From assembly GCA_032622095.1 (NCBI GenBank), contig CP136064.1, positions 264,719,863 to 264,783,862 on the forward strand: DNA of 64,000 nucleotides. The letters run 5' to 3'. This DNA comes from Siphonodentalium dalli. Lineage: Eukaryota; Mollusca; Scaphopoda; Gadilida; Siphonodentaliidae. The notes beneath the pieces were generated by a model that ran no database searches, had not been told where the DNA came from, and saw only the letters and a program-made list of their open reading frames with translations. The position numbers were made by a program, and so were the translations under genes. This document shows, piece after piece, positions 34,101 through 64,000 of this stretch (position 1 is its first letter; every line of letters begins with the position of its first letter).

Positions 34101-37100
34101 AGCCTTGGTAAGTCTGAGTATACGCCTAAAATATTAATCTACATTCTGTGATGGTAAGGTAAGGAGAATATCTAGTGGTTTTGAGTGGATACCGACTATT
34201 ATCTGATAAGTGACAGAGACAAATCTTTATTTTTGCGAGATCGCTGCAAACTGCGGGCTAAAACAGAGATGTATCTCAGTCAAGATGGAATTTTTTTTAA
34301 ACACGTTCACTACCGACCCATTCAATTACATGCAAAAAGTATGAGATAACTCGTAGTCGACAGTGACCATGTTAATACACTAAAAAACACTAGATTTTCT
34401 TTTTATTATGCAAGTTTCAAAAGAAATTCACCATTGAGAACAATTAATTTTCTCATTTCTCAGTTTTACGTTACTGCCTTCCACACAGAAACATACAGTA
34501 ATGCTCTAATTAATCGACCTCTTAACCAAAGCAGAATTATGGGTAACTTTTCAGGATTTAGTTGGAAATATGGCTTGTTGCCATTCATCGGAAAGCTCTC
34601 GGGGAGAGCTTTCCGATGAATGGCAACAAGCCATATTTCCGACTAAATCCTGAAAAGTTACCCATAATTCTGCTTTGGTTAAGAGGTCGATTAATTAGAG
34701 CATTACTGTACTTCCTCTATTATTAATCCATTCATTTCACCATATTTATTTGAATTTCAACACAGAAACAAGTTTTATCATGAATATGTTAATAACAATA
34801 AGGATCTCTATCTATTCTGGAGGATTTTTAAATATTTGTGGCATACATGTAAGTGAATTGATTGCACACAAAAATTTGCCTTTTGTGGGCTTTTCCTAAG
34901 TTTTTAATTCGCTACTTCAATGACATTTATGAGTTCAAGCAAACTTATTAGTATTAATGAAGTGGGCAAACTGGAATGCAGCTTAGAGCAAAATAGTTTG
35001 TTGTTTCTGTTAAAAATTACAATTAACAGGGCTGGATACCTAACACACCAAAGTGTGGTGACACTGACCCCATCAGCGTCATTAGTAATGGTACAACACA
35101 TACTTATCATCCTATGATTATTGTAATATTAAATCACAGCATGTGTGGTTTGCTCCAATACGTGTCACATACGGTCATATTATTTATTAACCCTTTACCC
35201 AACAGAAGGGCCCTGTGCCAATGCATTCTCTTATATATGCGAGTCGACCATAGGTCGCCTCGCATATATAAGAGAATGCATTGGCTTAACACATTAAAAA
35301 TTATAAAATTGTTAAAGAATGTAAGAAAAAATGGTAAAAAGTGTTAAAAAAAGATTTTTTTTAGGCCAATGCATTCTCTTATATATGCGAGGCGACCTAT
35401 GGTCGACTCGCATATATAAGAGAATGCATTGGCACAGGGTATAACTGTAACTATCACAATGTGGTCAAGGAGCCGGTTCCAATGATATCCATATTTGTAT
35501 GGTTCTATTGAGACAGACCGAAGATATTTTAGGCTGTTGAAGCTTTATTTGGCCGGTTTTGGCCGGTTTGTTGGGTAAAGGGTTAAATTACTCTTGACAG
35601 GGTATTGTTCGAAACCATCAAAATCGTCCCTTGAGGTACAGAAACAAGCTGATGTTTGCAATGTAAGGAAAGCTAACTCTAAAAAAGTCCAAGAGAGGAG
35701 CCAAGAACTCTTCTTTTCAGTGTTTGTCAAGGTAAATATCATAACGAGCTCAAGCCTGGATATAGTGTGTCTGACTTTTATAAAATGAGGTCCCCAGAGG
35801 GTGAATTTAGTGATGCTACCCCGCAAACTGGGACAGAATCACAAAATTTACCCCCTGGGGACCTCATTCTGATTAGGCATCATCGTCTGGGAAATATCTA
35901 TACTAGTAGTCTCAAATTAAAATTGTTTTTAGTTACTTTTTCCCTGCTGTTCAGTTTCTATATCCCCTAATTTGCAAAAGATAAATTGCATAATCGAGGT
36001 GACTAATGAGTGAACATCACCAAATCGCCAAATAATATTTAAAAGCGATCTTGATATTTAATTTTTTATTTTTGGTGCACACCCAACAAAGCATTTCCAC
36101 CTCTGTGTCGACTAACTCTAGGTCTAATTTCAGTTTCCTGTGGACCAAGTCTGAGTTTAGTGTGCCTGTCATTTGCAGAATGAGGTCCCCAGAGGGTGAA
36201 TTTAGTGATGCTATCCCAAATAGTGGGCTAGCATCACTAAATTCACCCTCTGGGGACCTCATTCTGCTTAGACCTCATCTTCTCTGGAAAGTTTCTTTAT
36301 TATCAAACTTCTATATATTTTTTTAGTTTAATTTCTTTATATCCCCAGATTGGCAGACGACACATTGCATAATGGGTGTACATCACAATATTCAATCATT
36401 TGGGAACTTCAATCTGAGTCTGTCTCCCATAGCAGATGAGGTCATGCAGATTGAGGTCCCCAGTGGGCTAGCATCACTAAATTTACCCTCTGTGGACCTC
36501 ATTCTGCAAATGACACACACTATAATCAGGCTTGCTGTGGCCATTTTTTCCCAGACAGATGTCCATGAAAAGCTACAGTAACGCTCTAAGTAATCGACTC
36601 CTTAACCACAGCAGAATTATGGGTAACTTTTCAGGATTTAGTCGGAAATATGGTTTGTTGCCATTCATCGGAAAGCTCTCGGTAATTCTGCTGTGGTTTA
36701 GGAGTCGATTACTCAGAGCATTACTGTAATTGATTATTAGTATTTAATACATGTTTGAACATACTTAACAGTAACAGTAATGAATCGCAAATCTCAATCG
36801 AGGCAATCAGGTCTGTTCGATCTCACTTCCATGTATGTTTGCAGGGACCAGCATTAGTGACATCTGCTCCCTAAATGTGCCACTTTTCCCTATTTTGGTT
36901 CCAGGGAGAAGTGACCTCTCTCATATACCAGTATGCATATCGCCCAACAGCATATTTAAAGTATATTTACTCATTATAATAGGGTTCTTACTAGCTATAA
37001 TGGTTTTATAATCAGGCTCTTGTGTTGCATAATGCATAATCGATCATAGGGCGATGATGGGGTGTAAATTGAACTTATAACCAGACTGGGAGAAGTGACT

Positions 37101-41300: not shown

Positions 41301-44300
41301 AACAAACAAGCTTTAAAAACCATGTGCGGCTATGCGCGTGCAATACTTTAATCAACGCGCACCTGTTCAACTACAGTACTGTAAAAAACATATTTTTCAT
41401 GTTCAGTGACAACGTACCGTAGGTATGTTCCTGCATGTGACCCAACACAAAGAACTGGCTTCTTGGTTATGTAAACACACAGTGGGTAAAATAATGGAAC
41501 AGAAGGGGGAACTTGTCTTCCAAACTACGTCAACGTTATTCACTCGAAACCAAAATAAAGGTTATCGACATCAAACTGCATTTTGTTCACGTTTTACAGT
41601 ATAAACAATTCAAACACGTGCTTTTTTCATTCGGCAAACCTCATCAGATTTTGTCACACCAAGAGGTCACAGGTCGAGGAGTTCAGAATGGTGCTTTTTT
41701 TTATACGTTTTAGCACAAATACAAGCCTTTTGTCAGTGCTGTTAAATAATTACACTCACTGGCTTTTGTTAAACATGCAATTAGTCGCTATTGTAACATC
41801 CTCTATGTGGACAATGGATCACGAATAAAGCGCCGGGTTTATTGTTTTCCTAATCGGATTAAGTCTGAACATTGATATAAACTATAGACGTCTTATAGAC
41901 TATAAGATAAGGGATTTACCCATAACCCACAATGCCGCTTACATAATAGTGTCATTTTAAGATGGGAATTTTGGGCAATAAAACTACAAGACTTAAAGTG
42001 TTATTATAATATTTTAATATTCACATTTAATTGAAAAATTACTTTCTCATAGTAACTTATAAATACTTACCTAATTTACTTAATCTGGAAGCCGGGTATA
42101 TTTCCCAAATAATCGGCGTTAGATCTGGTTAGATCGGCTTTCATAAGTTTTAATGTCCCGATTTCTTAGGATTTTTGGTCTGCAAAGGGCCATATCCGAG
42201 TTTAAGCCCACTTGGATTTTTGAGCTCAAATAAAACAAAGGCCCCCTGGGCCTAAACGCGGGTCAGTACGGTATATATACCAGTCCCACATAGTGAGCTT
42301 CACATATATAAGAGAATGCATTGGTTTACACAGCCTAGGTAAATACTATGGGAGAATCGCATATATAAGAAAATGCACTGGCACAGGATCTTGAATGCTG
42401 CACCAGCACAGCTCCCATCATGAAAGGGTTAAAATTGACATCGATTATAACAAAAAGTATCTTGCTCTGCCCATGTCTTTAAAATTCTTCTGAATAAAAA
42501 TGTATTATTGATCATCTATAATTGTATTCTCATGACCAATGCTACTCTCAGTAATTATTTTTCAACCAAGAACATAGCAAACCCAGATCATATATTGTGT
42601 GTCTGACATTTTTAGAATGAGGTCCCCAAAGGGTGATTTAGTGACTATCTCACTCAGCGGGCTAGCATCTCAATATATTCACCCTCTGTGGATCTCATTC
42701 TGCTTAGGACTCATCTTCTGCAAAGTATCTTTATTATCAAATTAACATTGTTTTTAGTTACTTTTTCCCTTCTGTTCAGTTTCTATATCCCATAATTTGC
42801 AGAAGATAAAATTAATAATCGAAGTGACTAATGCGTGAACATCTCAAACTTCAACTCGGGTACTTTATCTGATCCTAGGTCTCCCATAGTCTATGAGAGA
42901 CTCGCATATATAAGAGAATGCACTGGCATAGGATCATTAGTGCCGCATCAGCATGGCTCCCTTCATGAAAGGATTAAACTTTTCACATTCCTTATCCCTC
43001 CATTGACTGTAATATATGACATTATCCCCTCTCCAAGTTGAGCTACAGTGTCATTGATACTTTCATTGCCATTCTTTTCAGAAACTTAACCTGGCTGATA
43101 AATCATTCCACAAGGAACAAAAATGTCCTGTTTTGACCTTGAAGTGGGCAGCGGAGGACGGTCATCCAGAGATCACGCAAACAATCACCATCTTCACTTT
43201 GGTCGACGTTGTAATTCAAGCTGATAAGGAACCAATGCGGTGGTCGGTGAGTATGCTAATGTTCCAAATAAACATTCAAGCACATTTATTAATTTCATCA
43301 AAAAGTTCCACCCTGCGTGTTGCTTATTTGTAAATGCAAATTTCCTATTATTTGCTACCTCAACCGGAATTTTGAGTATGTTTTGTTAATAAAGTTTACT
43401 GGTTCTTATTTCTCCGTTGATGCCAGCTCTATATGTTTTTATGTCAGCTTTAAATAATCATGTATGACTCGTATTGATACCAAACATATGGCATCAAATA
43501 TGCTCCATTTCATATCAGGGTTCGCACGCATGTACTGGAAACTTGAATATACTGGAAAAAGCAAATTTAACTTTCCAGTACTGGAAATATACTTGAAAAA
43601 CGATCTCCGGCCGATCGATACTGGAATATACTGGAATCGGCCGATTTTATGTAGCACCGGTCACTGGCACCGGTTGTTATTTTTCGTAACACCGGTAAAA
43701 CACAATGCGGTGCTTCTTGTTTGACCATTTATTTTCTCGTGTCTTATTTCTACGGCACCGGTTTATAAATTTAGAATAGATGTGTAGTTCAGCGCGAATT
43801 CTAGATGAATTATAAATTTGTACATTTAACACATTCAAAACATGTGCAGGAGGTTTGTTTTTTGCGAGAATTGGCTTGAGATTACCGAGTTTAGTGGATG
43901 GTTGGCTGCCATCGATGGAGACCGACATCGTGCGAAGTGTCTTGTATGTTCAAAGACATTTGACATTGGAAATATGGGACAACATGCACTTCATAGTCAC
44001 GCTATTCGTAAAAACCACATAAATGCCATGAAAATCAGAGATGGCATGAACGTTCGTACATTTTTTTGTACATGTACTTCAACTAGAGGTGCCACGATTA
44101 TTTATTCGATAATCGGTCGTCAATAATCGACTATAATCGATTAATCGTACATAATAATAATAACATCAGTAGACGTATTCCGTAATATGGCCTATTGCCA
44201 TATTGGCTGGATGCTGGTTAACTGCTTTCGCTGCTTGTTTGAGGCTTCGGCTGATGTAATTTTTGTGTTAATAAAGTGCATCATAAACCACCGGTAATGA

Positions 44301-47667: not shown

Positions 47668-48518
47668 GATATGATGGATGATATTGATTAGTTTCAAATT
47701 TGTTTCTAAAACGTTCTTTTTACACTTCTTCAATATGATATTTTACTGAAATGTGCTTATTTCATAGAACAAGTCGGCCCACAACAGCTTGGGATATCGG
47801 TTGGGTTGATGCTGTTTTGGACCAAGTTCTGCCCCGTTACTCTTCTGTAACAGACTTTACACCCTGAATCATGGGCGGGAATTATCTTGCTTGTATGTCT
47901 TTGGATTAGGTCAAATGGACGCTTTGCGTATATGGACATGGAGGGCAACCTTTCCCAAGCATGATTATATTAAACATGCACTCCTCAAAATTGGCCATGG
48001 CAATAAGCAATGCCGTGGGAAATGCCTTGGCAACATGTGGAATCTAACATGCCACAGTATTGAATTTGCTGCGGGACACTTTTCCTAATTTCAAGGGCTA
48101 AACATGTGTATATCAGAGTTCCGTTAAATGTCAAAGCAACAAGATTTATAAGTAAACAAAGCCTTATTTTCCAGAGAATTTTATATCAATATATTAAACG
48201 ATTGTATCATCACTTTACCTTTTTCTATAATGGTAAATGATGTATCATTTTGAAGACAGATTAATCACAGGCATGTCAGATGGTTAATCACATTCAGGGG
48301 TTCACATAATGCTGGGCTCCATGTGTAAATTTAATACGTCTTTTCAATAAAATTATGTTATAGAAGAGTAACGGCACGGGTATCAGTCCAAAACAGCATC
48401 AAGCCAACTGATATCCCAAGCTGTTGTGGACCGAGAAGAGACTTGGTCTATTATTTCGCTACTGGTACTCTGATATGATATTGCTATCTGAACTACGCAA
48501 ATTTGTCTATAGAGTCTT
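47668..48518. other. Intergenic, two inverted 45-bp blocks
   Basis: ACAACAGCTTGGGATATCGG and TGCTGTTTTGGACCAAGTTC (47780-47830) recur inverted at 48385-48430 (GTCCAAAACAGCATCAAGCC, ATATCCCAAGCTGTTGTGGA). This marks a roughly 650-bp element with long inverted ends. No ORF recognised. Confidence 0.5.
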
Positions 48519-48908
48519 TTAACCCTTTACCCAACAGAAGGGCCCTGTGCCAATGCATTCTCTTATATATGCGAGTCGACCATAGGTCGCCTCGCATATA
48601 TAAGAGAATGCATTGGCTTAACACATTAAAAATTATAAAATTGTTAAAGAATGTAAGAAAAAATGGTAAAAAAAGATTTTTTTTAGGCCAATGCATTCTC
48701 TTATATATGCGAGGCGACCTATGGTCGACTCGCATATATAAGAGAATGCATTGGCACAGGGCATAACTGTAACCATCACAATGTGGTCAAGGAGCCGGTT
48801 CCAATGATATCCATATTTGTATGGTTCTATTGAGACAGACCGAAGATATTTTAGGCTGTTGAAGCTTTATTTGGCCGGTTTTGGCCGGTTTGTTGGGTAA
48901 AGGGTTAA
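48519..48908. mobile_element. MITE family A copy A8, full length
   Basis: TTAA-flanked, both palindromes and the CCGGTTTTGGCCGGTTTGTT right subterminal region complete. Virtually identical to A6, so recent. Confidence 0.88.
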
Positions 48909-49840: not shown

Positions 49841-50096
49841 GACCCTTCCATAACTTGAGCTTCCTGAAATTTTGCAAAAACTCTGTGCCAATGCATTCTC
49901 TGATATATGCGAGTCTCCCATATGGAGCCTCGCATATATAAGAGAATACATTGGCCTAACAATAGATTTACCTTTTAACCCAGTGCATTCTCTTATATAT
50001 GCGAGGTTCCCTATGGGAGACTCACATATATAAGAGAATGCACTGGCACAGGATCTTTAATGCTGCACTAACTCAGCTCCTGTCATGAAAAGGTTA
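49841..50096. mobile_element. MITE family B copy B7
   Basis: Runs from GACCCTTCCATAACTTGAGC to CTGTCATGAAAAGGTTAA with two hairpins of the TCTCCCATATGGAG/CCCTATGGGAGA loop type. The left TTAA is lost. Confidence 0.7.
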
Positions 50097-51087
50097 ACTA
50101 CTGATGTCTATTAGTTTCTCAGGGCATGTAATTTGGGATGAACAGAAAAGTTATGGTGACCTGTCAAACAGGTTCCCTCCAATTCCCATAGTGATCCAAT
50201 CACAGAAGTGCCCCCAGGACAGGTTTACCCAAAACCCCATAAGCAACAGCACCACTGTTGCATTTGGGGCCATTTCCTAGAACTTAGTAGTTTATTCAAA
50301 AGTTAGGTATAATATTTTATCTGGAAATTCTTTCTCAGAATCGTGAAGGTTCAGGCTGATCTCTGTTCAGTTTCTATTTACCCTATCAGTGCTATTGCGA
50401 GCAGAAATTAGGTCCCCAACATTTCTATTTGGGTGAATGAGGGGCAAACGAAAAATCTGTTCACCCAAAATTTCATGTCCTGTTTCTTGAGCCCATGGAT
50501 GTTTATATTGTATGATAGTTGTATTGTATGAATTTTATATTAAAAAAAAAGAAAAAAAGAAGAAAATCAGTTGGTGTCATATTACAATGTTCTTATTATG
50601 TTTTCCATGTTTTATGGTCAATTTAAATATTTAAGTTCTAATGTGTGATCAAACTGATTCAAATCCAGTCTATTGAACTAGCTACTCATTTGATAGTCTG
50701 AAATGCCTCTATAAATAGCTTTCCCCAGCTATCCCCGCCTTATAATGCAACCGTGCATATTTTGAATTAAAAATAAGATTTTGTGAATAACAAATTCTAT
50801 GCTACCAGTAAATGTTAAAATTCTTGGAAATATTTAATTTCATTCTCCTTGTTAGGTAATATTGGTCAATTATGGACTTTTTATCAACGCTTTTTATTCA
50901 ATTAGTTGCGTAATCTCTAAAATATAACCATTGTGTGAAATCAGCCATGTAACAGGAAAATTATTACCGGTATGCTATTTTTAACTATGTGGTGGGGTTC
51001 ACTGGTACCGTGTTCGCTGAAGAAATTGCGACAGTATTCTGATTGGCTTCATCTTTTTTCTCTGGAAGGTAGTGATTTGCTGACGGT
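50097..51087. other. Intergenic, nothing recognised
   Basis: AT-rich sequence between the DIS3L2 3' flank and a hAT element. I see no exon, no transposon ends and no tandem repeat beyond a short A/G-rich run at 50541-50565. Confidence 0.4.
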
Positions 51088-51095
51088 AGACTTAA

Positions 51096-52069
51096 TTAGA
51101 GCTGAAACGGACAGCCGGATAACCGGTTAGCATCCGGATAACCGGTTAGAAAAAAATGAACCGGACGAAACCGCATCCCGCTCTGTCAGTTGAATGTGAA
51201 CGTGAATAATGCCCTGGTGCCCTCAAAATATTAAGATAAATGATGCAAAAGTAATTCTAACCCCTGTGCCACCGATAGTAGAGTGCAATGCAAGCATTAG
51301 TTGGTGCACGCGGAAGTTTCAGACACTGAGTAGCGTGTCGGCGACCTTCAATCAATTCCGGCCTTTGAAGTTTTCTCTGATCTTCTGACGAGAGCACGTG
51401 GGCAGTCACTGTGTATCCAGGCGGGATAGTTCAAAGCAATGACGTCACTGAATCAGTGAATCTGTCATCTGATTGATACCCCTCAGACTCGGTATAATTT
51501 TGTGTTGAAATTTGAAAAGTGAACACGGCTATCGATAGTTAGTGTCCGCGATCATGATACCGACGAATAGTTCGAATACTGAATAGGACTGTGAGTCTGT
51601 GACCTAACTGACCTTCCTTTTAGTTCTATAGTTATTACTTTCTAATCTTTATTTATAATTCATTGGAGGATATACCAATGATGATAATGATATATTACAG
51701 ATCTTTAATATATAGTTTTGTTACTCGTTTTACCAATACCCATACTATTGTTACTCGTTTTACAAATGCCCAAACATATGCTGATCACGGCAAATAAGCG
51801 ATACCCTGCCATTCACAAATTTCACTTGCTCTTTCCCCATCACGATAGCAAAAGAACAGTGAATGCATGTTTTTGAATATCGTTAAATGCCGTGAATAAG
51901 GTCTTTATTTCAGCTACTATTTCTCACCTAGGTTTGTCCCTAGAGCATGGCATAATGTCGACATAATTAGTCTGAGAGAAGTCCGCTAGAAATTAGCGGT
52001 TAACCGGTTAAAATCCGGCTAACCCCAATGGTTAACCGGTTAGAAGAATGGGTCAACCGTTTCAGCTCT
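51096..52069. mobile_element. hAT element, non-autonomous, 974 bp
   Basis: Inverted ends TTAGAGCTGAAACGG and GTTTCAGCTCT, flanked by the perfect 8-bp direct repeat AGACTTAA (51088-51095 and 52070-52077). Subterminal ACCGGTTA motifs are repeated at both ends. No ORF of note. Confidence 0.87.
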
Positions 52070-52073
52070 AGAC

Positions 52074-52246
52074 TTAACCCCTTTACCCAACAAAACGGCC
52101 AAAACCGGCCAAATAAAGCTTCAACAGCCTAAAATATCTTCGGTCTGTCTCAATAGAACCATACAATGGTTCTATTGACCTATGGTCGACTCGCATATAT
52201 AAGAGAATGCATTGGCACAGGGCCGTTCTGTTGGGTAAAGGGTTAA
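52074..52246. mobile_element. MITE family A copy A9, internally deleted
   Basis: TTAACCCCTTTACCCAACAA to TTGGGTAAAGGGTTAA, with only half a palindrome left. Its left TTAA is the last four bases of the hAT target duplication AGACTTAA. Confidence 0.82.
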
Positions 52247-52544
52247 TGCTTCTTGAAATTAATTGGATTCCCTGCTCTTTGTTTTAGATTATCAAAGTTA
52301 ACTTGGATTTGAATCAGATTGACTTGTGATGACTTTGTGATAACATACCGGTAATTAAAGTTATTGGAACTGAAACTAAAATTGTCTTTGTTTGCCGACC
52401 TTGGACACTGGAGAAGATGTCTGAGCAGTGATCAGCCCAGTGGAAGATATGGGAGATTTCTTCTCCCTGGAATATGTCCATTCTCCCTCTTTTCATACCC
52501 CCCCCCCCCCCCCCCACTAAAGAAGTGAATGGTCAGGACACTCA

Positions 52545-53890
52545 AGCCTTGAAATAGTGTGTCTGTTTTTTGCAGAACGAGGTTCCCAGATGGGTGTATT
52601 TAGTGATGCTATCCCGAACGGCAGGCTGGCATCACCAAATTCACCCTCCGGGAACCTCATTCTGCTGAGGCCTCAACTTCTATGGGAGACCTATGATCAG
52701 ATTGTGTGGGATGCCATCACTAAATTTACCATCTGCAGACTTCATTCTGCAAATGACAGACAGACTATTTCAAGGCTTGCCCAAAAAAGAAGTGAATGGT
52801 GGGCACACTGGATTGCATGTGACTGGTCCTCTGTCCATCTGTTCAAGCAGATATCTCGACCATGAGTTATCAGATCTCAATTAAATTAGGTATGGATGTT
52901 CACCACCCATTCAAAGCAGTAGTCAATGGTTTTGTTTGCGGTTTCCATTTTGGAGTTATTTGTCTTTGTTAATCTGGAAATGTTGAATTTTTGTCCATCC
53001 GAGCAGATATCTCGGACATAGGTTATCAGATCTCAATGAACTATGGCAGGATTTCGATCTTGGTCATCAGGATGGATTTGGTAGAAGTGTAAAGGTCGAA
53101 AAGTTGGTGTTCATACATTTAGTACGGCACGGGTTAGCAACTTGCAACTGATGAAGATCTTATTGGCTTTGTCTCTTTTCCTTCTCTGGTGATTTCATTT
53201 ATAAATTATAAATTTTTACTTTTTGGTTTTATTAATTAAAATATTTTGGTGCACAAATTTTTAAAAACCGCTCCAGGCCACGGCTCTCTGCCCTAAAATT
53301 ATGACAAGTGAACGAGGAATCAGGTATCTGCATAAAATGTTATATGACTAATTGGTTTCAGGCCATTTTTCTTTCAGCTTATCCCAATTTGACATATCAA
53401 AACGCTTTCAAGCCATCAGCCAACATTTCATTATGACTTTTTATTGTCATCCTGGGATGCTAGGTATGATTTTCGCTAACCCTACATGATGTTACCTGGT
53501 CAGACATCCACTTACCTCTCATTCGTTACCCGGCTATAAAACAAGCATTTTGATGTTGGCCATCAGGATGGATTTGGTAGAAGTGTAAATAAAGCCCATT
53601 GATGTGATCGACAAGGCTTGAAATAGTGTGTCTGTCATTATCAGAATGAGGTCCCCCAGAGGGTGAATTTAGTGATGCTATCCGACATAGTGGGGTAGTG
53701 TAACCATATTTGCCCCCTGGGATCCTCATTCTGCTGAGGCCTCAACTGCTATGGGAGACCTGGGATCAGATTTAAGTTGATGATGTTCACCCATTAGTCA
53801 CCTCAATTATGCATTTAGTGTTACTAAATTCACCCTATGGGGACCTCATTCTGCAAATGACAGACACTATTTAAGGCTTTATGATCGAGA
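52545..53890. mobile_element. Family E hairpins and an internal direct repeat
   Basis: Hairpin arms at about 52575-52670, 52725-52765, 53640-53730 and 53825-53870 use GAGGTCCCCCAGAGGGTGAA-like sequence and its complement. CATCAGGATGGATTTGGTAG occurs at 53067 and 53563. No coding exon. Confidence 0.55.
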
Positions 53891-54329
53891 AGGGTCACGG
53901 TCCAGTGATTTTTCTGTGGGTATATATGGCAAAACTAGGCAATTTTTGAAAAATTGGAAGGGGCTATTATGGCTGCGTTACTGCTCTATAGATGCCATGG
54001 AGTGGCACCGTACACATATGCAAGGATTCCCAGGTGACCGTCATGGTTCCGAGCGAAAATCAGGATCAATTTTCAAGCTTGATCTGGTTTGATCTCAATG
54101 TGCCATTCCAATCGACACATGGCTATTTTGATAAGAAATAATGATAAACTAATAACTTTACACACAACTGTAATTATTATAAATAAACCTTAGCCCGGTC
54201 CAAATTACACCACATACATGACTTAATCTCAATTCCTGACATGCTGCCATAATTATTCTATTACACCATAGCTCGTATGTAGAACTTATTTTCTGAACAT
54301 TTCCATGAAAGTCAATTCGTCCTAATATT
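53891..54329. other. Intergenic gap between the convergent genes
   Basis: Downstream of the GH9 extension on the minus strand. AATAAA on the plus strand occurs at 54182, but no clear AATAAA on the minus strand near 54330. Nothing else recognised. Confidence 0.4.
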
Positions 54330-55415
54330 TCAGCAAGTGGATTCCAAATTATTCACAGGATTGGTGAACTCTGGAATAAACGACCTTGAACCATCTTCAT
54401 TGGGGTGAGCTGACCTTTGTTCAGGTTGATCTGAAGCCAACTTCTTATAAACAAAAATCAATAACATGAAAAAGAAAGTTCCAAATACTAATGCGAGCAT
54501 TTTGTCAGTAGACGAGGTTATCTCAGAAGTTAGGGTGTTATTGGTGGCTGATGTGTCCTCAGTTGGCGAAGTATTCACAGTAGTTGAAATGTTTTCAGAA
54601 AGCAGGGCTTCCTCAGAATGCAATGTGGTTGAGGTAGTTGATGTGTCCTCGATAGTTGATGTGCTTTCAGCAGGTAAGGTGTTTTTGGTGGTTGATGTGT
54701 TCACTGTAGTTGATGTGTTCACTGTAGTTGATGTGTTCACTGTAGTTGAGGTGTTCACTGTAGTTGATGTGTTGTCATATGGAGAAGTATTTGATGTTGA
54801 TGCATACTCGGTAGTTGACATGTCCTCTATAGTTGAAGTACTCTCAGCAGTTAAGGTGTTCTTGGAAGTTGAAATGTTCTCAGAAGGCAAGGTTTGCTCA
54901 GAATTTGATGTGGTTGATATGTTCACCATAGCAGCGGTGTTTTTAGTTGAGCGTGATGAGGTCTCGATAGTTGAGATGTTCACCAGAGCAGCGGTGTTTT
55001 CAGTTGAGTGTGATGTGGTCTCGATAGTTGAGATGTTCACCATAGCAGTGGTGTTTTCAGTTGAGCGTGATGAGGTCTCGATATTTGAGATGTTCACCTT
55101 AGTAGTGGTGTTTTCAGTTGAGCGTGATGAGGTCTCGATAGTTGAGATGTTCACCATAGCAGCGGTGTTTTCAGTTGAGTCGCTCTCAGTAGTTACGGCA
55201 TCATCAGAAGTTGAGATTTCCTCGGTAGTTGTGGTGTTATCTATATTTGAGGTGTTTTCAACAGACAATGTGCTCCCCACTGTTGATGTGTCTTCAGTTA
55301 ACGAGGCGATATCAGTAGATGAAGTATTCACAGAAATTGAGGTGCGCTTGGTATTCAAGATATTCTCAGTAGTTGACATTCCATCAGTAGTTGAGGTAGC
55401 GTTCTCATGATCTAG
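54330..55415 (-). CDS. In-frame 3' extension of the GH9 gene: mucin-like stalk plus transmembrane anchor (candidate stop-readthrough product)
   Basis: Directly after the GH9 stop (TGA 55418-55416) the same frame continues CTA GAT CAT GAG AAC for 361 codons to TGA at 54332-54330. Composition is dominated by Ser, Thr, Asn and Glu, with dozens of N-x-S/T sequons. It holds about five copies of a 20-residue unit (type STENTAAMVNISTIETSSR, about 54925-55180) and five of a six-residue unit (NTSTTV, about 54690-54770). After the repeats comes a single hydrophobic helix, MLALVFGTFFFMLLIFVY, then KK and a polar 34-residue tail ending NLESTC. That is type I topology. It could be made by readthrough (TGACTAG context), by use of the in-frame acceptor ending at 55412, or from its own ATG at 55379. 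The last is least likely because it would lack a signal peptide. The coding interpretation is inference. The unique TM and tail outside the repeats are its best support. Confidence 0.65.
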   Translation of the reverse strand, partial: LDHENATSTTDGMSTTENILNTKRTSISVNTSSTDIASLTEDTSTVGSTLSVENTSNIDNTTTTEEISTSDDAVTTESDSTENTAAMVNISTIETSSRSTENTTTKVNISNIETSSRSTENTTAMVNISTIETTSHSTENTAALVNISTIETSSRSTKNTAAMVNISTTSNSEQTLPSENISTSKNTLTAESTSTIEDMSTTEYASTSNTSPYDNTSTTVNTSTTVNTSTTVNTSTTVNTSTTKNTLPAESTSTIEDTSTTSTTLHSEEALLSENISTTVNTSPTEDTSATNNTLTSEITSSTDKMLALVFGTFFFMLLIFVYKKLASDQPEQRSAHPNEDGSRSFIPEFTNPVNNLESTC

Positions 55416-55421
55416 TCATGA
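55410..55421 (-). promoter_or_regulatory. Candidate stop-codon readthrough context (TCA TGA CTA GAT)
   Basis: TGA followed by CTAG is the strongest readthrough context described in animal genes (the UGA-CUA motif of the readthrough set including mammalian LDHB, MDH1 and AQP4). Here it separates two long in-frame segments. The overlapping TAG at 55414-55412 could also act as a splice acceptor that keeps the frame. Confidence 0.6.
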
Positions 55422-55450
55422 CAAATCGATTAATTCAAAATGCTTCAAAC
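55416..55450 (-). CDS. GH9 last exon, main reading frame to TGA
   Basis: Acceptor GGTTTTTCAG, phase 1. It encodes [11 protein letters not shown] then TGA, a normal short GH9 C-terminus after AVAG. The stop is immediately followed by CTAGAT. Confidence 0.88.
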
Positions 55451-58400
55451 CTGAAAAACCGAAATACAAAGATGTCATGAAGACAAGGTGGGAAATCACA
55501 TGCTTTCGAGGTTGGTTGAGTACCACGCATTCAAAATGTACGAATGCACAAAAACATATATGAGGAACTGACACAAAACATAGCATGTTGACTGTTACGA
55601 GCATATGCTTGTTTATTTTTAAAACAAGTTGATACCTTATTTGTTCGGAAATACTCAGTAGTGTTCTATATTCTGACCAAAGTTGCCAGGCGGACGTTCA
55701 TGGTATACACAAGTCCAGGAGACAACTTTGATGTTAGAACAAACAACTGAGTTTGGACACAAATGAGGTATCAGCTTGTTTGAAAAATAGTATAGCATAT
55801 GCTCGTAGCTGTAATATATCATTATCCTAGTTTATTATCTTTATCCTCATTTCTGGTCATGTTGCGATCACACAGCATATTTTTCAATTGTCAACCTCAC
55901 GTTTTTTTTTATATAACATTTCCCAGGTTCCCTAAATTTGTGATACACTTACCCAGGTTGGGGAGAATTGTGATACCCAGCTTAATAGCAACCTCATATT
56001 AAATTCATTGATTAAATTTGCAACGCCAACACTTTATATACTAATAGTTATAAATGTACGGTCAACGAGGACGATTAATCAGCAAATCTGAACAGTATTT
56101 TTCCCTCAGTCATATTAATTCCCATTCATATTCATATATGTCTACGTACCAGCTACCGCCGTCTGGAGTCCTGCATTATAATCACATGTCACTTCATTGC
56201 GAATATAATCTGTTCTTATATCCTCAAATCCATCTGTTTTATTCGGACCACCGCTCATGGCTCCATAAAGTATGTAGGTATTATCCTCAGATCCGAGGAA
56301 ATTAGACCAACCACAGGGATCAGGAGAGGGAGGGCAGGCACTGCAAACAGAGAAATATTTGCTAATTCATTAACCCTTTTGTGGTAGAATGACATTTATT
56401 TCTGGAACATTGTAAATCAAATAATAAATATCAAAATGTTTTTTTTTTAATTTTTTTGGCGACCAACAAAATAATGTTAAATTACTTGAGTGCAATGACG
56501 TTCACCTCAACCATGAAAACAGAACTATAAAATAAAATATCATCACACATGACAAAACAAGCCTTGTATGTGCATAAAAAAACCTTGTAAGTCTGTTTTG
56601 TTTTAACTCGATGATTCTACGACATATGGCATGCAATAAACACAGAATGACACATTTGTTAAAAGGTTTGTTGATATGGCACTTGTGCCATCGATCGATG
56701 ACAGATAGAAATTGAGGCTATGCCTCTCGTTCTATCCTTTCATGCTGGCACTCATGTTGTATGGACAAACCCATTAACACACTCGTGTCATATCGACAAA
56801 CTCATTAACACACTCGTGTTGTTCTGTGTATTTGTGTCAATTTATATGGATGGCGGGTGGGTGGAACAACATTTGTCTTTTACGGTAGTTCTATGGTAAC
56901 ATGTTACAGTGTGTATAAATACGTGGTGAAATTGTGCCCTAAAAGGAAACATTTCACAGATATTATGCAGATGGATATTATCCTGTTCTAATTTTATGAA
57001 ATGTCACTTTTGTTCACAATTTAAAGAGACAACTCGCAAAAATTAAAGATGGTCTATCTCTTCCTGAAAAAAAGTTTTATATAGTTTCTGTGATATAAGA
57101 TATAATAAATATGCATCAAAGACACCTGTCCGGCAACGCTTCTATCATTTAATATTGATTTTATTTTATTTTTTTCTGGTATACAGGTAAATATACTAGG
57201 GACCAGAGGGCAACTTTGGAGATATCTTCTCCCTAAATTGTGCCACTTCTTCCAATTTTTGTGTAAGGGAGAAGTGACTTCTCTCTCATATACTAGAAGG
57301 CTGATGTTGGTGTGCAAGTTGAACTTCACACATGACTACTCCCTGACAACAGTCCATTTCTCCCTGATGATCAAACAGGGAGAAGTGACATCTCTCAATT
57401 TTAAACTTCTAGGCTGATCCTTGTGATATACATACCACCATTTGGGGCAGTTTTACGGGGCTATTTTTAGAACAGAAACTTCAGGCGAATTGTTAAAGTT
57501 CTTTTTGTTACTTCAGATTAAACAAATCGCTCAAATACTAGAAATTTAGACACAGTCTCCCTTTATAATGTAAGGGAAGTTATGTTTGCAAAAAGATGAT
57601 GTTAGTTTACTTTACCTCGCTGAATGGTGTTGATTGACTGGGGGATTGAATCCGAACCCAGCAACGAAGCTCCGCCCAGTGTCTCCTAATGCATAGTGTA
57701 CCTGACTTTTGGCCCATGCTACGTTTTCTGTTTTGTCCAATCCCAAATCAGCTGCCAGTAATGCGATAAATGCTGCGTTCACTGAAGAGACAATTAGCCA
57801 GGTTCAGCAACACATATGTGTAACTTGTAACATGTTTAACTATGGTGTTGCTATGGATATGTACTTGACAGGAAAAGTATTGTGATTTTACGGCATCAAT
57901 TAAAGCTCACGTTTTAGATACCGGCAGAATGTGTAAAAAATAATCCGGTGGTAGAGAAAAATGACATGTCCACAGTGCGACTGACCACATGCTTAATTGG
58001 CTTCAATCAAAACATAATCTTACCACATGGACATATAGAATACACCCATAATAGCCGAGAATCCCAAATTTTCACCACGAGTGAGAGAGCCTTTTGGCGA
58101 GCGGTTAATACCACGAGTGGTGAAAATTTGGTACTATCGGCTACTATGCGTGTATTTTATTTATACCATAATTATTATTTTAGTAATTTTGTTTGCGAAT
58201 TGAACTACCCCGCTGTTTACTTTCAATGTGTATCCTAACTCAGAGACACAAACACGTCGCTATAAAGAATGTGTGTCGCGCGTAGTGATGCTTACATTAA
58301 CGTCATCCTGTTTCTGAGTGATCAGTCACTTGGAATTATCATTCATATGTTTCCTAGTTAATATAGCACTAGCAAGCTACATTTGATTGAAATTCAGGCA

Positions 58401-61400
58401 ATTTTCCTCATATCTAATTGATATCATGACAAATTCCAATTTTAAATGAATGTGACATAGGAACTATTTTGCTAACTAGATGTAGTTCTACTATGGGTAT
58501 GCACGTTTAACACATGGAATTACGTTTGAACATTTACACCCACAGTAGAAATTTATACCCACAGTAGGGTGTAAAGATGCAGTTTACAACATGGGTGTTA
58601 TACACACAATAGAACAGGCAATTATGGTATAAATATCTTATTCTCATATATTCTCCTACTGCCTGAATATATAGCATTGGCTTTTCTTTATGAGGCCCCC
58701 ACCCCCCCTTTTCGTACGCTGTATTCCATGCCCTGTTATGAGGTACGCCGTATTCCGGCCCCTCTGTTAGGAGGTATTCGGTATTATCTTATCTGATCTT
58801 AACTGGTACTCCGTATTCCATATGGCTGTTAACTGGTATTCCGTATTCCACCCTCTGTGTTAAGTGGTATTCCGTATTCCAGGGGGGTGGGGGCCTCCTT
58901 TATAGAAGATCTTATCAGAAGATTGAATTGTTTAAATGGCACAAACGAAATTATATCAGATTTATCGACAAATATAAGAAACAGAACACATATTTTCAGT
59001 GTTATATATATTACGAATTTGTTTGGAAATCTTCTGCTTTGGTAAGTTTTGAGATACCTCTTGTCAAATCATGTTCAAATAATTTGGGGTTGAACGAGCC
59101 ATTTCCGTTTAATGATGAGAAAAAATCAGAAGGTTTCTCACTTTTAACAACCAGGGAGATACTAAATACTAACTTGCATATCTTAGACTCCCCCACTTGA
59201 GATGGAATACCAGGCCTTTTGGAGTGTAATCTTTCAACGTCTTCCATCGGTCCAGGAACTGAGTGAGCTTGTCCGAGTATCGTGTATCTCCAGTCAAATA
59301 GTACATCAGTACCTTAAATAGTTCAAGTAAAACACCATTGCATTAAATAGTATGTCACTCATTCATACATTAAATAGTTCAAGTAATACAGTGGTATCTT
59401 AAATTGTTCAAGTAATATATAGTATACCGTTAAAAATGGATTATCTCTTTTAAATAACAAATTTTAGATAGTTTCCTGGGCATGAAATAATACGTATGAG
59501 TTGGAAATCGACCCCCCCCCCGGAAATGATTCTATCAGTTAATATTGATTTTATTTCGATATTATTTTATTCAATTAAACACTTCTTTGTTCTATTAATA
59601 GAACTTTTAGATAGAGGCCTCCAGCGTGGTGCTCCGAACGAATGCGTGCCGCAAAATGTCTCTGATTGATTGTATCTATTGTAATATTAAGTGCGAATCA
59701 AGTATAGATAACATCTAGAGTGTACCATATGCCATTACACTTAAGTGTAATGCTTAAGTGTATTATGCTTAATCATAATGCCATTTAATTGGTTTTCATA
59801 GCCTTTCAACCTTACATATAATGGTATCATCTAAGGTAAATAAGTTACTAGCATTAGTAATTGGCTGCATCCATTTCCGCTTCAGGGGAGTTTTGAGATA
59901 TGGAATTTGAATTCTGTAATAGCATAATAGCATTACATTTAGCGTAATAGCATTACATTTAGCATAATAGCATTAGGCTTAAGCGTAGTTGGTTATTAAA
60001 TGTGATTTTGGCCTCCCATACATACTGTTAATGACAATCACACAATTGAGTCATTGGAAATCATTATAGTTTTAGTAAAGTATAAAAAAAACTCTAACTA
60101 TGGTTTGGCGAGGGACAGTTAGCTGAAGGGCCTCTCGATTGGGTTGCCCTAAACCTATGTATAACATAGCCGTTTATTGATGGATTCTGATTTTGGTATG
60201 TGAGTTTATTGTCATGTGCGACATCTTCACAAGGAAAATCAGCCAGCCCCAACATAGGTCGATAATTGTTGAACTTATTATCGGAGCATTTCCCACCAAA
60301 GAATATGAATCCTTCTGCACATGTACATGTATATTATCTTTTTATATGTATGTTGTCTGCACTTATTATCTGAACATCCCTCTATATCAATAATAGAACA
60401 TTCTAATGAATACTTTTATAACTGTTTGGGAGAATTCATTTAGTATAGAACGGGTTAATAGAGCTCTTTAAAATCACTTCATGAAAAACGCTCCTTATTT
60501 TTTCATTTAGTCAAATATCGATTTTGTCGGAAATAAAATCTTGTGTGTCAAAACTTGTTAGTTACTTCAAAACATGGGGTTACACTGGTTTCAAATGGTG
60601 GTTCTGGTTCACATAAATGTGACTATTTGGTAATTGACACAACTGAAACATCCACTTAATTTTCAAATTATTTACATGCAATTTCAGATAAGCCAAATTA
60701 TTGGTATAAATTTAATGCATTGATTGACCTATCTTGATCTTATGGAATGTGACAATGCATATACAATTACATGAACTAGGTTTTATTTGAGACACAAAAG
60801 CAATATGTCACTTTAACCATTTATATACTTAAAGATGCATTCTCCGAATAAACACTCCTAAATTTCTATATTTTTGGTTTCGGGGATAAAAAATATTTGA
60901 TTTGAGTCTCGGAACCCACCCATCAAAGCTCAGAGTGATCAGATATCGATTTTTAAAGTTTGTTATTTCTCGAGATGTGCAATTATTTGTGGCCCAGAAA
61001 CACGTCATCAAACAGACGGTCTCAGGCAAAATTGCAGATGAAGATGGATAACTCTAAAATCAAGTGGTAAATCGGCCAATTTAGGTGATATTCAAGTGAT
61101 AATATAGCTATATTTTGTTGAACATAATGTTGACAAATAACAAGTTTTTGGAAATTTGATACCATAGTTGACAGTGCAGGTTAGCATTATTTTGTTGCAA
61201 TTAATCGATTCTGATAAACCAAAGCGTATTTTGAAGAAACATTTTTGTTGTTGTATCTTGATGATATGGGGACCATCTGATCAGATTGAGTGCCTTTAAT
61301 GGATTCTCCCGTGCCACTCACTTATAAAAGTCTATATTGGAATGGTCTATTATTAATTTGGAGGGATGTTCAAGTAATATAACCAGACGACAGACGGGAG

Positions 61401-64000
61401 AAAATATAACAGAAGTGCAGAAGAATACATATTCATTAGTTGGAAATGTTCAGATAATAAGTTCAACAAATGGTTGTTTGTTGTTTCCCACTCAGGGACC
61501 AGCCTAGGGTCAAAATATAGGGAGAAGTGACTTCTCCCTCTTGGAAAAATAAGGAGAAGTGAGGGCTTACCAGGGAGAAGTGGAGCGTTAGTGTGACTAT
61601 TTGTCGCTAGTAACTATTCATTAGAACTGATTGTTTTAGCTGTTATTATTGTCCACAATAGATTTTCTACATGTGTGAGGATAAACTGGAAGTGTTAAGC
61701 TGAGCAGTAGATCATCCAGTCACCAATTCTTCAGGGAGATTAAAAATTTAACCTTTTTTTTTTAGGGAGACATCCACTTCTCCCTGACGTCATTTCAGGG
61801 AGACTTGCGGCCACACAGGGCGACTATTTCGCCCACGTCGCCCCCTAGGCTGGTCCCTGTTCACACTAATGAATATGTATTTTGGTACAGATATGGTTAA
61901 AATTACAGAACAATCACTAAATTTCAGATTATCTACTGGAGTCCACTTTCGATGTTTTTTTTCTGTCAGGTGACACTCACATATATGTACATGATAACTA
62001 AGAATATACATACACATGATAACTAAGAATATACATACAATAGCGCCTATTCCCTTGTCATCCCAGGACAATTCTGCATGCCATATTAAAAGACAATTCT
62101 CAGCATCCGTTTTGTAAGTGGTGCTGTTAGTTGCATAGTACAACCAAGCAGCTGCCCAGGCAAGTTCATCATAGTATCCATTGTAGGACCTGAGAGTGGT
62201 TCACGGAAATTACTGTTACATCCAGGTGGGAGTGGAAAAAAATTTGCAGGCACGTATGCTGATTTTTTACTTTCGACCCAACAATGGGACCCACCCACCC
62301 CAGCGTCCAAATTTTTTTCCGTTTTCGGCAGTTTTTTCTGACCATTTTTTGACACCCACCCCCATTTTAACACTAAAACAGATATTTGCGGGGGAAATTC
62401 ACTGTAAACAGCAGTATATGAATTACTGTGCATACTATTAGTCATGGATGTTAACATTGACATGTAAAAGGGAACAAGTCATTTTGGGGTCATTCGGTCA
62501 AAAAAAACATGGCTGCCAGCAGCCATCTTGGATTTCAAAATTCAATCCATTAGCATGGGCTACAGGCTATACTGTTTGTCTGATCATCATGGAATTTGTC
62601 ATTTATGTTAATATTGACATATAGATGTATTTTAAGCCAAACTCATTGCAAAAACAGTCAAAAAGACTTGTAGGAAAAATATTTTTGAGTTGCGGAAAAA
62701 ATTGTTTGTTGGTCCTATCGACCACCCACCCAGCCCCGTGTTACATCCCGATAACAATTAGACCTAGTTTCCCATGCCTCTAACACCTTGGGATAGTATA
62801 GGTCAGTTAATGAAAACGCACACAGCTGTGTTTTTTTTTCAGAAGCGAAAAATTAAATTATGATAACAATATCATGAGATTTTTTCAAAGAATATTCAAA
62901 TTATCATCCGGACAACAAAATTATCAGCAAAATTAAGTTGAAAAGTGGCATAATATTGTCAGAAATGGTCTGACAGGAACCAAGTTTGAATTTGATTGTG
63001 ATCTTCTCATATAAAGGCCATATTCATAATGATAATACAATGATATCAAATACTATTAAGGTTATCATCCAGACAACAAACATTTCGGACGGCTGGATAA
63101 ACGGATGGACGCTGCTCATTTCCATAGTCTCCCAAATCTTTTGGGGGGGGGGGGGGCAAGGGAATAAACGACCTTTAACCCTTTCATGATGGGAGCTGCG
63201 ATGATGCAGCAATAAAGATCCTGTCCCAGTGCATTCTCTTATATATGCGAAAATCCCACATTGAGCCTCACATATATAAGAGAATGCACTGGCTTACATG
63301 GTGAAGGTAAATAATTTTTAGGCCAATGTATTCTCGTATATATATGTGAGGCTCCAAATTTTCAAAATTTTAAGAAGCTCCAGTCATGGAATAGTTAATT
63401 TTTATATGCATCATTATCAGGAAATGCACTTCATATCAAAGATGGTGGTTGGAAAAACACGAATGTGACGTCATCAAACACAAAATCTGCAAGGTAAAAC
63501 TGCCTCTGTTAAAACTTTTTCATACACGTAGCCAAATCATCAGAACCCTTGCACCAACACTATAGCATTAAGACAGGGCCATAAATTTTAGCATTGGTTT
63601 AATGTGGCAATGTCATTTGTTGTCCTGCAAGTACACTAGAAGATGTTGCGATATTGAACTTACATGTATGATTCACCAACATCTTGAGACTCGGAATACA
63701 CTCCGCGGGAAGTATTGGCGAAGTTATACAGCTGTATGGCATGTCCAAGAAGTACTTCACTGTAAGTAGCATCTGAAATAAAGATAAGATTGGGTGACAT
63801 CATAATGTGTGAATGATTAGAGTAACTATTCAAAATGAAAGACATACAACTTTGAGGTCAATGCCCATAACAGAATAGCCAGGCCAATACCGGAAATTTC
63901 TGGTAACCTCGATTAGATAATGCTTTATTATTAAAGTGCGGCTCAACCAACCTATGCTTTGTTGCCTACCTGTCGTGGCAAACCACACAAAAAGATTCCA
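55416..64000 (-). CDS. Glycosyl hydrolase family 9 endoglucanase (cellulase), C-terminal 273 residues
   Basis: Join on the minus strand, from the right edge: 63970-64000 (partial), 63664-63772, 62039-62189, 59174-59312, 57616-57781, 56150-56340, 55416-55450. All phases close, giving 822 nt including TGA. GH9 blocks in order: [105 protein letters not shown], which holds the catalytic acid Glu. Known activity of the family: inverting hydrolysis of beta-1,4-glucan, normally secreted; animal members digest plant or algal cell wall. The signal peptide and the nucleophile/base Asp region lie outside the window. The HHR motif reads HHS here. The stop is TGA followed by CTAG, and the frame stays open beyond it (see the next entry). 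No gene symbol is given because animal GH9 genes lack a uniform one. Confidence 0.95.
55451..56149 (-). other. GH9 last intron
   Basis: Donor GTACGT at 56149, acceptor GGTTTTTCAG at 55451. Inverted blocks CATATGCTTGTTTATTTTTA (55602) and TATAGCATATGCTCG (55791), together with AAGTTGATACC/GGTATCAGCTT, form a roughly 200-bp hairpin element. No exon seen. Confidence 0.5.
56150..56340 (-). CDS. GH9 exon with catalytic acid region
   Basis: Acceptor TTTGCAG, donor GTACGT, phase 2 to 1. It encodes [32 protein letters not shown] and [20 protein letters not shown]. The Glu of NEV is the GH9 general acid, and flanking Asp residues are conserved. Confidence 0.96.
56341..57615 (-). other. GH9 intron with hAT-like fragment
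   Basis: 57197-57422 is a GGGACCAG-type element (AGGGACCAGAGGGCAACTTT to TTCTAGGCTGATCCTTG). The remainder is AT-rich. CATTAACACACTCGTGT is repeated at 56772 and 56803. No exon seen. Confidence 0.45.
57616..57781 (-). CDS. GH9 exon with signature 1 region
   Basis: Acceptor TCTTCAG, donor GTAAAG, phase 1 to 2. It encodes [14 protein letters not shown] and [20 protein letters not shown], then VNQHHSAS. In most GH9 enzymes the last segment reads HHR; here Ser replaces the Arg. Confidence 0.96.
57782..59173 (-). other. GH9 intron with two foldback structures
   Basis: 58060-58140 pairs CCCAAATTTTCACCACGAGT with CACGAGTGGTGAAAATTTGG. 58693-58902 has the ends GAGGCCCCCACCCCCC and GGGGGGTGGGGGCCTC around repeated GTATTCCGTATTCCA motifs. 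No exon seen. Confidence 0.5.
59174..59312 (-). CDS. GH9 exon
   Basis: The acceptor is a weak TATTTAAG, the donor GTTAGT, phase 0 to 1. It encodes [20 protein letters not shown] and [18 protein letters not shown]. Spliced to the next exon it gives the family-typical RYAMNAAFIAL, which fixes the donor at 59173. Confidence 0.93.
60254..60458. mobile_element. MITE family C copy C5
   Basis: GTTGAACTTATTATCGGAGC, AACATCCCTCTATATCAATA and TTTAGTATAGAACGGGTTAA match the family C right half. Confidence 0.6.
61296..61487. mobile_element. MITE family C copy C6, inverted
   Basis: The same blocks as C5 on the opposite strand: TTAATGGATTCTCCC, TTGGAATGGTCTATTATTAA, GGAAATGTTCAGATAATAAG. It abuts the next element. 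Confidence 0.6.
61493..61859. mobile_element. hAT-like MITE, inverted relative to 18339-18732
   Basis: CAGGGACCAGCCTAGG to CCTAGGCTGGTCCCTG. Its sequence is the close reverse complement of the copy at 18339-18732. The flanking octamers TTCCCACT and TTCACACT differ at one position. Confidence 0.82.
62039..62189 (-). CDS. GH9 exon
   Basis: Acceptor CTCTCAG, donor GTATGT, phase 2 to 0. It encodes [19 protein letters not shown] and then [14 protein letters not shown], both strong GH9 blocks. Confidence 0.95.
62190..63174 (-). other. GH9 intron, nothing recognised
   Basis: AT-rich sequence containing a 14-bp G run near 63143. I see no exon in it and no clear transposon ends. Confidence 0.4.
63175..63398. 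mobile_element. MITE family B copy B8
   Basis: TTAACCCTTTCATGATGGGA at the left, GTCATGGAATAGTTAA at the right, with one full hairpin and half of the second. Confidence 0.75.
63664..63772 (-). CDS. GH9 exon
   Basis: Acceptor TATTTCAG, donor GTAAGT, phase 1 to 2. It encodes [18 protein letters not shown] and [13 protein letters not shown], the typical helix of the (alpha/alpha)6 barrel of GH9. Confidence 0.93.
63970..64000 (-). CDS. GH9 exon, partial at window edge
   Basis: The open frame [10 protein letters not shown] ends with one base of a Gly/Asp codon before donor GTAGGC, and joins in phase to DATYSEV of the next exon. The block is less conserved, so this boundary is the least certain of the gene. 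Confidence 0.6.

Follow-up and report, generated by a model that had tools for sequence, protein, structure and literature searches.

A GH9 gene of Siphonodentalium dalli with a UGA-CUAG stop followed by an in-frame extension for a mucin-like stalk and a predicted membrane anchor

A single last exon of a GH9 gene, located on the minus strand of the window (the whole stretch of 64,000 nucleotides that was analysed), would encode two alternative C-termini. Readthrough of the UGA in its CUAG context is the best fit for the bypass of the TGA that separates them, with belief and doubt about evenly balanced; the weights given to readthrough and to its rivals are judgements and were not computed. According to the proposed mechanism, most ribosomes would halt at the UGA just past the GH9 fold, giving a soluble, secreted enzyme. 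In a minority of ribosomes, a near-cognate tRNA would decode the UGA, and translation would proceed through a further long in-frame extension. The readthrough product would thereby gain a stalk with glycans, a single transmembrane helix and a short tail in the cytosol, and this extended form would be a type I membrane protein with the same catalytic domain outside the cell. Here we infer readthrough, secretion, glycosylation, topology and enzyme activity from the DNA.

The gene is represented in the window by six GH9 exon pieces, which splice in a single frame through the GH9 domain, the TGA and the extension:

63664..63772, minus strand: GH9 exon a, the most upstream piece in the window, with an acceptor TTTCAG followed by A and a donor GTAAGT
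62039..62189, minus strand: GH9 exon b, joined in frame, with a Pfam GH9 match
59174..59312, minus strand: GH9 exon c, joined in frame
57616..57781, minus strand: GH9 exon d, carrying His-His-Ser where the displayed PDB relatives have His-His-Arg
56150..56340, minus strand: GH9 exon e, with the catalytic-Glu region
54330..55450, minus strand: last exon f, with the GH9 end, the TGA, the extension and the final stop, running on into the 3′ UTR

The spliced 262 residues preceding the TGA match the Pfam GH9 profile from position 173 to 443 of 444 with E = 4.3e-63 and a score of 214.6 bits (Pfam cut-off 27.7), and GH9 is the sole Pfam family found at E ≤ 0.01 in the three minus-strand frames of 54001–64000. 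Since the match starts at profile position 173, the N-terminal part of the protein, with any signal peptide and the DAGD motif, should lie beyond the window end (64000). The catalytic Glu, in an NEV adjoining DYNAG, is present in exon e; the NEV/DYNAG motif of GH9 is named in a passage of PMC11083476. Among 22 PDB matches, the best are endoglucanases, e.g., 1ks8, 3wc3 and 4zg8. A tblastn search of the window for a second GH9 copy recovered the exons of this gene, and every other match had an E of 2 or worse.

The acceptor of the last exon, located at 55450 on the minus strand, reads ...GGTTTTTCAG before the junction and GTTTGAAG after it, and its score lies at the 99.9th percentile among AG sites of the strand. 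The six inferred GH9 acceptors have scores of 4.6 to 11.1 and occupy the 91st to 99.9th percentiles, as scored with a generic matrix and ranked against every AG of the strand. The first 32 bases of the exon finish the GH9 domain with its usual C-terminus LIDLS, after which the following features succeed one another:

55416..55418, minus strand: internal UGA stop, located from the spliced frame and the sequence
55412..55415, minus strand: CTAG directly 3′ of the TGA, the readthrough motif, whose AG might also act as an alternative acceptor in frame
54507..55415, minus strand: Ser/Thr/Asn-rich stalk, 303 residues long, in which an 18-base unit with the consensus TSTTEN occurs 44 times
54444..54500, minus strand: single predicted transmembrane helix MLALVFGTFFFMLLIFVYK, with a Kyte–Doolittle mean of 2.18 over 19 residues
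54333..54443, minus strand: polar C-terminal tail KLASDQPEQRSAHPNEDGSRSFIPEFTNPVNNLESTC, containing SFIPEFTNPVNNLESTC

The GH9 residues encoded by the last exon align with AVAALRAIQLRD at the C-terminal end of chain 3wc3_A, and because the alignment ends there, the TGA is placed two codons past the aligned GH9 end. Counting the present site, CTAG comes directly after only 2 of the 2726 TGA triplets that the two strands of the window contain. The arrangement described in the sequence-only reading, LIDLS-TGA followed by CTAG and then 361 codons in the same frame, is confirmed by the frame of the six spliced exons. The sequence, the frame and the motif are direct observations.

Passages of PMC4132726 describe efficient readthrough at UGA-CUAG in four mammalian genes (OPRL1, OPRK1, AQP4 and MAPK10), with 12 downstream bases being enough for readthrough of the four and with deletion of CUAG leaving it almost undetectable. 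The same source counts 23 human genes with UGA-CUAG, of which just four score positive for coding past the stop. Hence, the motif alone is no proof of readthrough and independent coding evidence is needed. A structured readthrough stimulator after the stop was also considered and rejected: the RNA folding 3′ of the stop was not significant (z = −0.36), 73 of 200 shuffles folding equally well.

The GH9 frame is open past the TGA from 55415 to 54333 and is closed by a TGA at 54332–54330 on the minus strand; it is the longest stop-to-stop frame of the window. The stalk includes 87 Thr and 59 Ser among its 303 residues. It carries 21 N-glycosylation sequons against a shuffle mean of 15.2, a modest excess, since 61 of 2000 shuffles reach 21. 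The stalk is followed by DK, then by MLALVFGTFFFMLLIFVYK, the second K of a KK pair and the polar tail. In a hydrophobicity control, only 6 of 15,372 overlapping samples from both strands of 1–54000 were open 67-codon stretches with a 19-residue segment that equalled or exceeded the hydrophobicity of the one in the last 67 codons of the extension. No Pfam family was found in the extension at E ≤ 1. The antisense frame is likewise open, spanning 319 codons from stop to stop (54451–55407), as the sequence-only reading had warned.

Independent coding evidence was sought in the stalk's own repeat copies, which were compared within one sequence and not between species, the repeat units being searched at every base offset. 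All 44 units of the 18-base consensus ACCTCAACTACTGAGAAC fall in the GH9 frame, and the first of them opens six codons past the TGA (offset 18). The nine irregular unit spacings are all multiples of 3 and represent about six independent events when grouped by eye with a 57-base array counted once; this regularity follows from all units lying in the GH9 frame, so it is the same fact and not independent evidence. For the silent-change test, 12 units that are recent copies were dropped, which left 32 of the 44. Of 79 single-base codon changes, 32 were silent, where the estimated transition bias would predict 28.4% (P = 0.014). The P value ranged from 0.0033 to 0.018 over three kappa values with 32 units and from 0.0051 to 0.031, depending on kappa, with all 44. 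The same test applied to the antisense open frame gave 26 of 82 (P = 0.29, ranging from 0.14 to 0.32 over kappa), and the other sense frame left open by the consensus acquired seven stops among 72 single changes and four more among multiply changed codons. Third positions took 70 of 164 substitutions (P = 0.0078), a number reached in 1 of 2000 neutral simulations. These P values for coding derive from a single sequence and are modest. The signature itself is a direct observation and suggests that the GH9-frame stalk was translated while the repeats diverged.

Codons differing by more than one base from the repeat consensus, which lie outside the silent-change counts, number 40 in the 32-unit set, and all of them change the amino acid; the 57-base copies, as read from the sequence, also differ chiefly by amino-acid changes. 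On this ground, the constraint on the stalk seems to concern frame and composition and not exact residues. The choice between the sense and antisense frames, previously unsettled, is now tipped by the repeat test towards sense. The absence of stops does not contribute much to this choice: in simulations, a frame with zero stops had P = 0.016 in the sense and 0.015 in the antisense direction, and since the antisense frame is equally stop-free, the argument was kept as weak. A far smaller P of 6.9e-05 for zero stops was set aside as too strong, given the relatedness of the copies. Together, the repeat test and the hydrophobicity control support the view that the stalk, the transmembrane segment and the tail are real coding sequence.

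One further feature relates to the end of the transcript:

53440..53445, minus strand: first AATAAA after the last-exon acceptor, found with a poly(A) signal scan

A minus-strand scan from 55450 to 53445 revealed no earlier AATAAA or ATTAAA. With ordinary signals, the cellulase mRNA would consequently include the extension, as the first of them appears only at 53445, and the extension is probably carried by that mRNA. Variant signals do exist, e.g., AATATA at 55247, ACTAAA at 54947 and AATAGA at 54262.

In PMC5100048, readthrough candidates were screened by first excluding splicing, a downstream ATG, opposite-strand translation and selenoproteins. In the present case, the rival that survives best is alternative splicing, in which a second acceptor past the TGA would lead to soluble and stalk-and-anchor isoforms; it is unlikely, while deserving the most attention among the rivals. 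The CTAG itself provides a candidate acceptor at 55411, TGACTAG before ATCATGAG, which is of the YAG type and lies exactly 39 nt (13 codons) downstream, so that its use would keep the frame and remove the TGA. A second in-frame AG at 55291 (+159 nt), with a score of 2.45 versus 1.54 at 55411, would also skip the TGA, and a TTAAT seen by eye about 18 bases 5′ of the CTAG might serve as a branch site. Soluble and membrane isoforms produced by splicing are common. However, the in-frame acceptor at 55411 appears weak, ranking at the 73rd percentile of strand AGs, where the six inferred GH9 acceptors span the 91st to 99.9th. Both candidate sites are situated 3′ of the very strong acceptor at 55450, and splicing to either would delete residues partly aligned with the GH9 C-terminus of 3wc3.

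Somewhat less likely again is a recent nonsense change, a null allele or an assembly error in a gene that normally encodes a single long anchored GH9, so that the extension would be a genuine C-terminus and the TGA a defect of this haplotype. For the coding signature, past translation of the extension would be enough, and the TCATGA could be derived from TCACGA by a CpG transition; the Arg-to-Ser replacement in the HHR signature could also reflect relaxed constraint on the gene. A random TGA, however, would have to hit exactly where the stalk adjoins the GH9 fold and to precede CTAG, as just 2 of the 2726 TGAs do, and the six GH9 exon pieces show no other break in frame and have usable splice sites.

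It is quite improbable that the extension is part of another gene, one transcribed separately or spliced in a different way, or has its own start at the ATG at 55379. This ATG opens 349 codons of the extension frame, but its product would begin in the Ser/Thr repeat with no hydrophobic leader; the extension frame is continuous with the GH9 exon, and the first repeat unit begins 5′ of the ATG. Slighter still is the chance that the extension is an untranslated 3′ UTR left open by repeats with periods in multiples of three. The repeats do leave the antisense frame open as well, but chance would have to account for the silent and third-position enrichment in the GH9 frame, for the presence of all units in one frame, and for a non-repetitive transmembrane segment and tail of a quality found in so few of the sampled stretches.

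Least likely of all is recoding of the UGA by selenocysteine or by A-to-I editing to UGG, either of which would open the identical frame: no SECIS family was found among 12 Rfam matches at E ≤ 5 (50000–64000) and no element in a simple core scan of 55415–52000, both of limited sensitivity, and the A to be edited would follow a G, which ADAR disfavours, while the region just past the stop folds no better than shuffles. The selenoprotein reading was lowered on account of these empty scans of limited sensitivity. All 12 Rfam matches were to microRNA families, scored far under the respective gathering thresholds and were disregarded.

UGA-CUAG readthrough therefore stays the preferred reading for the bypass of the TGA. 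That it acts as a translational switch, by which a single mRNA would yield secreted and membrane-anchored GH9 in a set ratio, in a digestive or cell-surface hydrolase, is a prospect just short of even. The protein is filed as GH9 by its profile match, and cellulase activity is an assumption. The catalytic-Glu region is present, but the HHR signature reads HHS in exon d (57616–57781), with Ser replacing Arg. This Arg is kept in 5 of 5 PDB sequences displayed out of the 22 matches; four of the five are near-identical, leaving two independent sequences. The Arg belongs to the H-x-R signature of the PROSITE GH9 pattern, from which the present sequence departs at this residue. The enzyme is possibly altered or weakened by HHS, and if catalysis were weakened, the role of the anchored form may be to bind glucan at the cell surface and not to digest it. 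Digestive enzymes are described in part of PMC11083476 as either secreted or held at microvilli by transmembrane domains, and the annelid GH9 enzymes treated there are catalytic domains of slightly more than 420 residues. A gut or digestive-gland site for the anchored enzyme is speculation.

Comparison with known systems reveals both common and distinctive traits. OPRL1, OPRK1, AQP4 and MAPK10, as presented in PMC4132726, share the UGA followed by CUAG and an in-frame extension with a coding signature. The first three are multi-pass membrane proteins even without readthrough, their extensions are predicted to lie in the cytoplasm, and that of MAPK10 has 13 residues, whereas 361 residues with a stalk and an anchor would be added here to a presumably secreted enzyme. 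Readthrough that exposes a peroxisomal signal, treated in portions of PMC5100048 and PMC4132726, likewise relocates a protein, the target being the peroxisome instead of the plasma membrane proposed here. The passages of these two papers used here hold no mention of a switch from a secreted to a membrane-anchored form by readthrough.

The animal GH9 endoglucanases 1ks8, 3wc3 and 4zg8 share the profile region 173–443, the NEV-DYNAG motif and a C-terminus at about the same point. Their PDB chains have 426 to 460 residues, while in the present gene a stalk and an anchor come after an internal stop and the Arg of HHR is Ser. Plant KORRIGAN-type GH9 enzymes are also membrane-held, by an N-terminal (type II) anchor; the one predicted here would be optional and sit at the C-terminus (type I). 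Mucin-like type I membrane proteins have Ser/Thr-rich tandem repeats, one transmembrane helix and a short tail. The extension follows this plan downstream of a GH9 catalytic domain, from which a possibly leaky stop separates it.

The earlier reading knew of no described GH9 of this kind, and a literature search of open-licence PubMed Central, covering titles and the openings of abstracts, found no GH9 with a readthrough stalk and anchor. A scan of viral contigs for relatives gave three pattern matches, none of which was confirmed. UGA-CUAG readthrough, GH9 enzymes and relocating readthrough are each known; their predicted combination with a stalk and an anchor did not turn up in that search. 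If true, readthrough would decide between the secreted and the tethered fate of an enzyme, and a general signature to seek would consist of a catalytic domain, TGACTAG, a Ser/Thr-rich repeat, a transmembrane segment and a tail.

The window also contains several other features. A DIS3L2-like exonuclease gene (8036–43330, plus strand) is located tail to tail with the GH9 gene. It comprises RNB pieces at 18612–18917 and 33792–34148 and a Dis3l2_C_term match below the cut-off at 43058–43330; its N-terminal region may be held in 8036–8503, which has no Pfam match at E ≤ 0.1. A DDE_1 transposase fragment (PF03184) with 233 open codons occupies 21686–22384 on the minus strand. A repeated element at 13859–14140, 32106–32383 and 48479–48786 has inverted arms and encodes the same peptide on both strands, and is perhaps MITE-like. 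A 62-base unit is arranged in tandem at 28052–29046 in 16 copies with 96% matches. At 1016–1741 and 2257–3140 lie two arrays built from a related unit, about 170 bases long, with long G and C runs; the arrays are apparently oriented in opposite directions.
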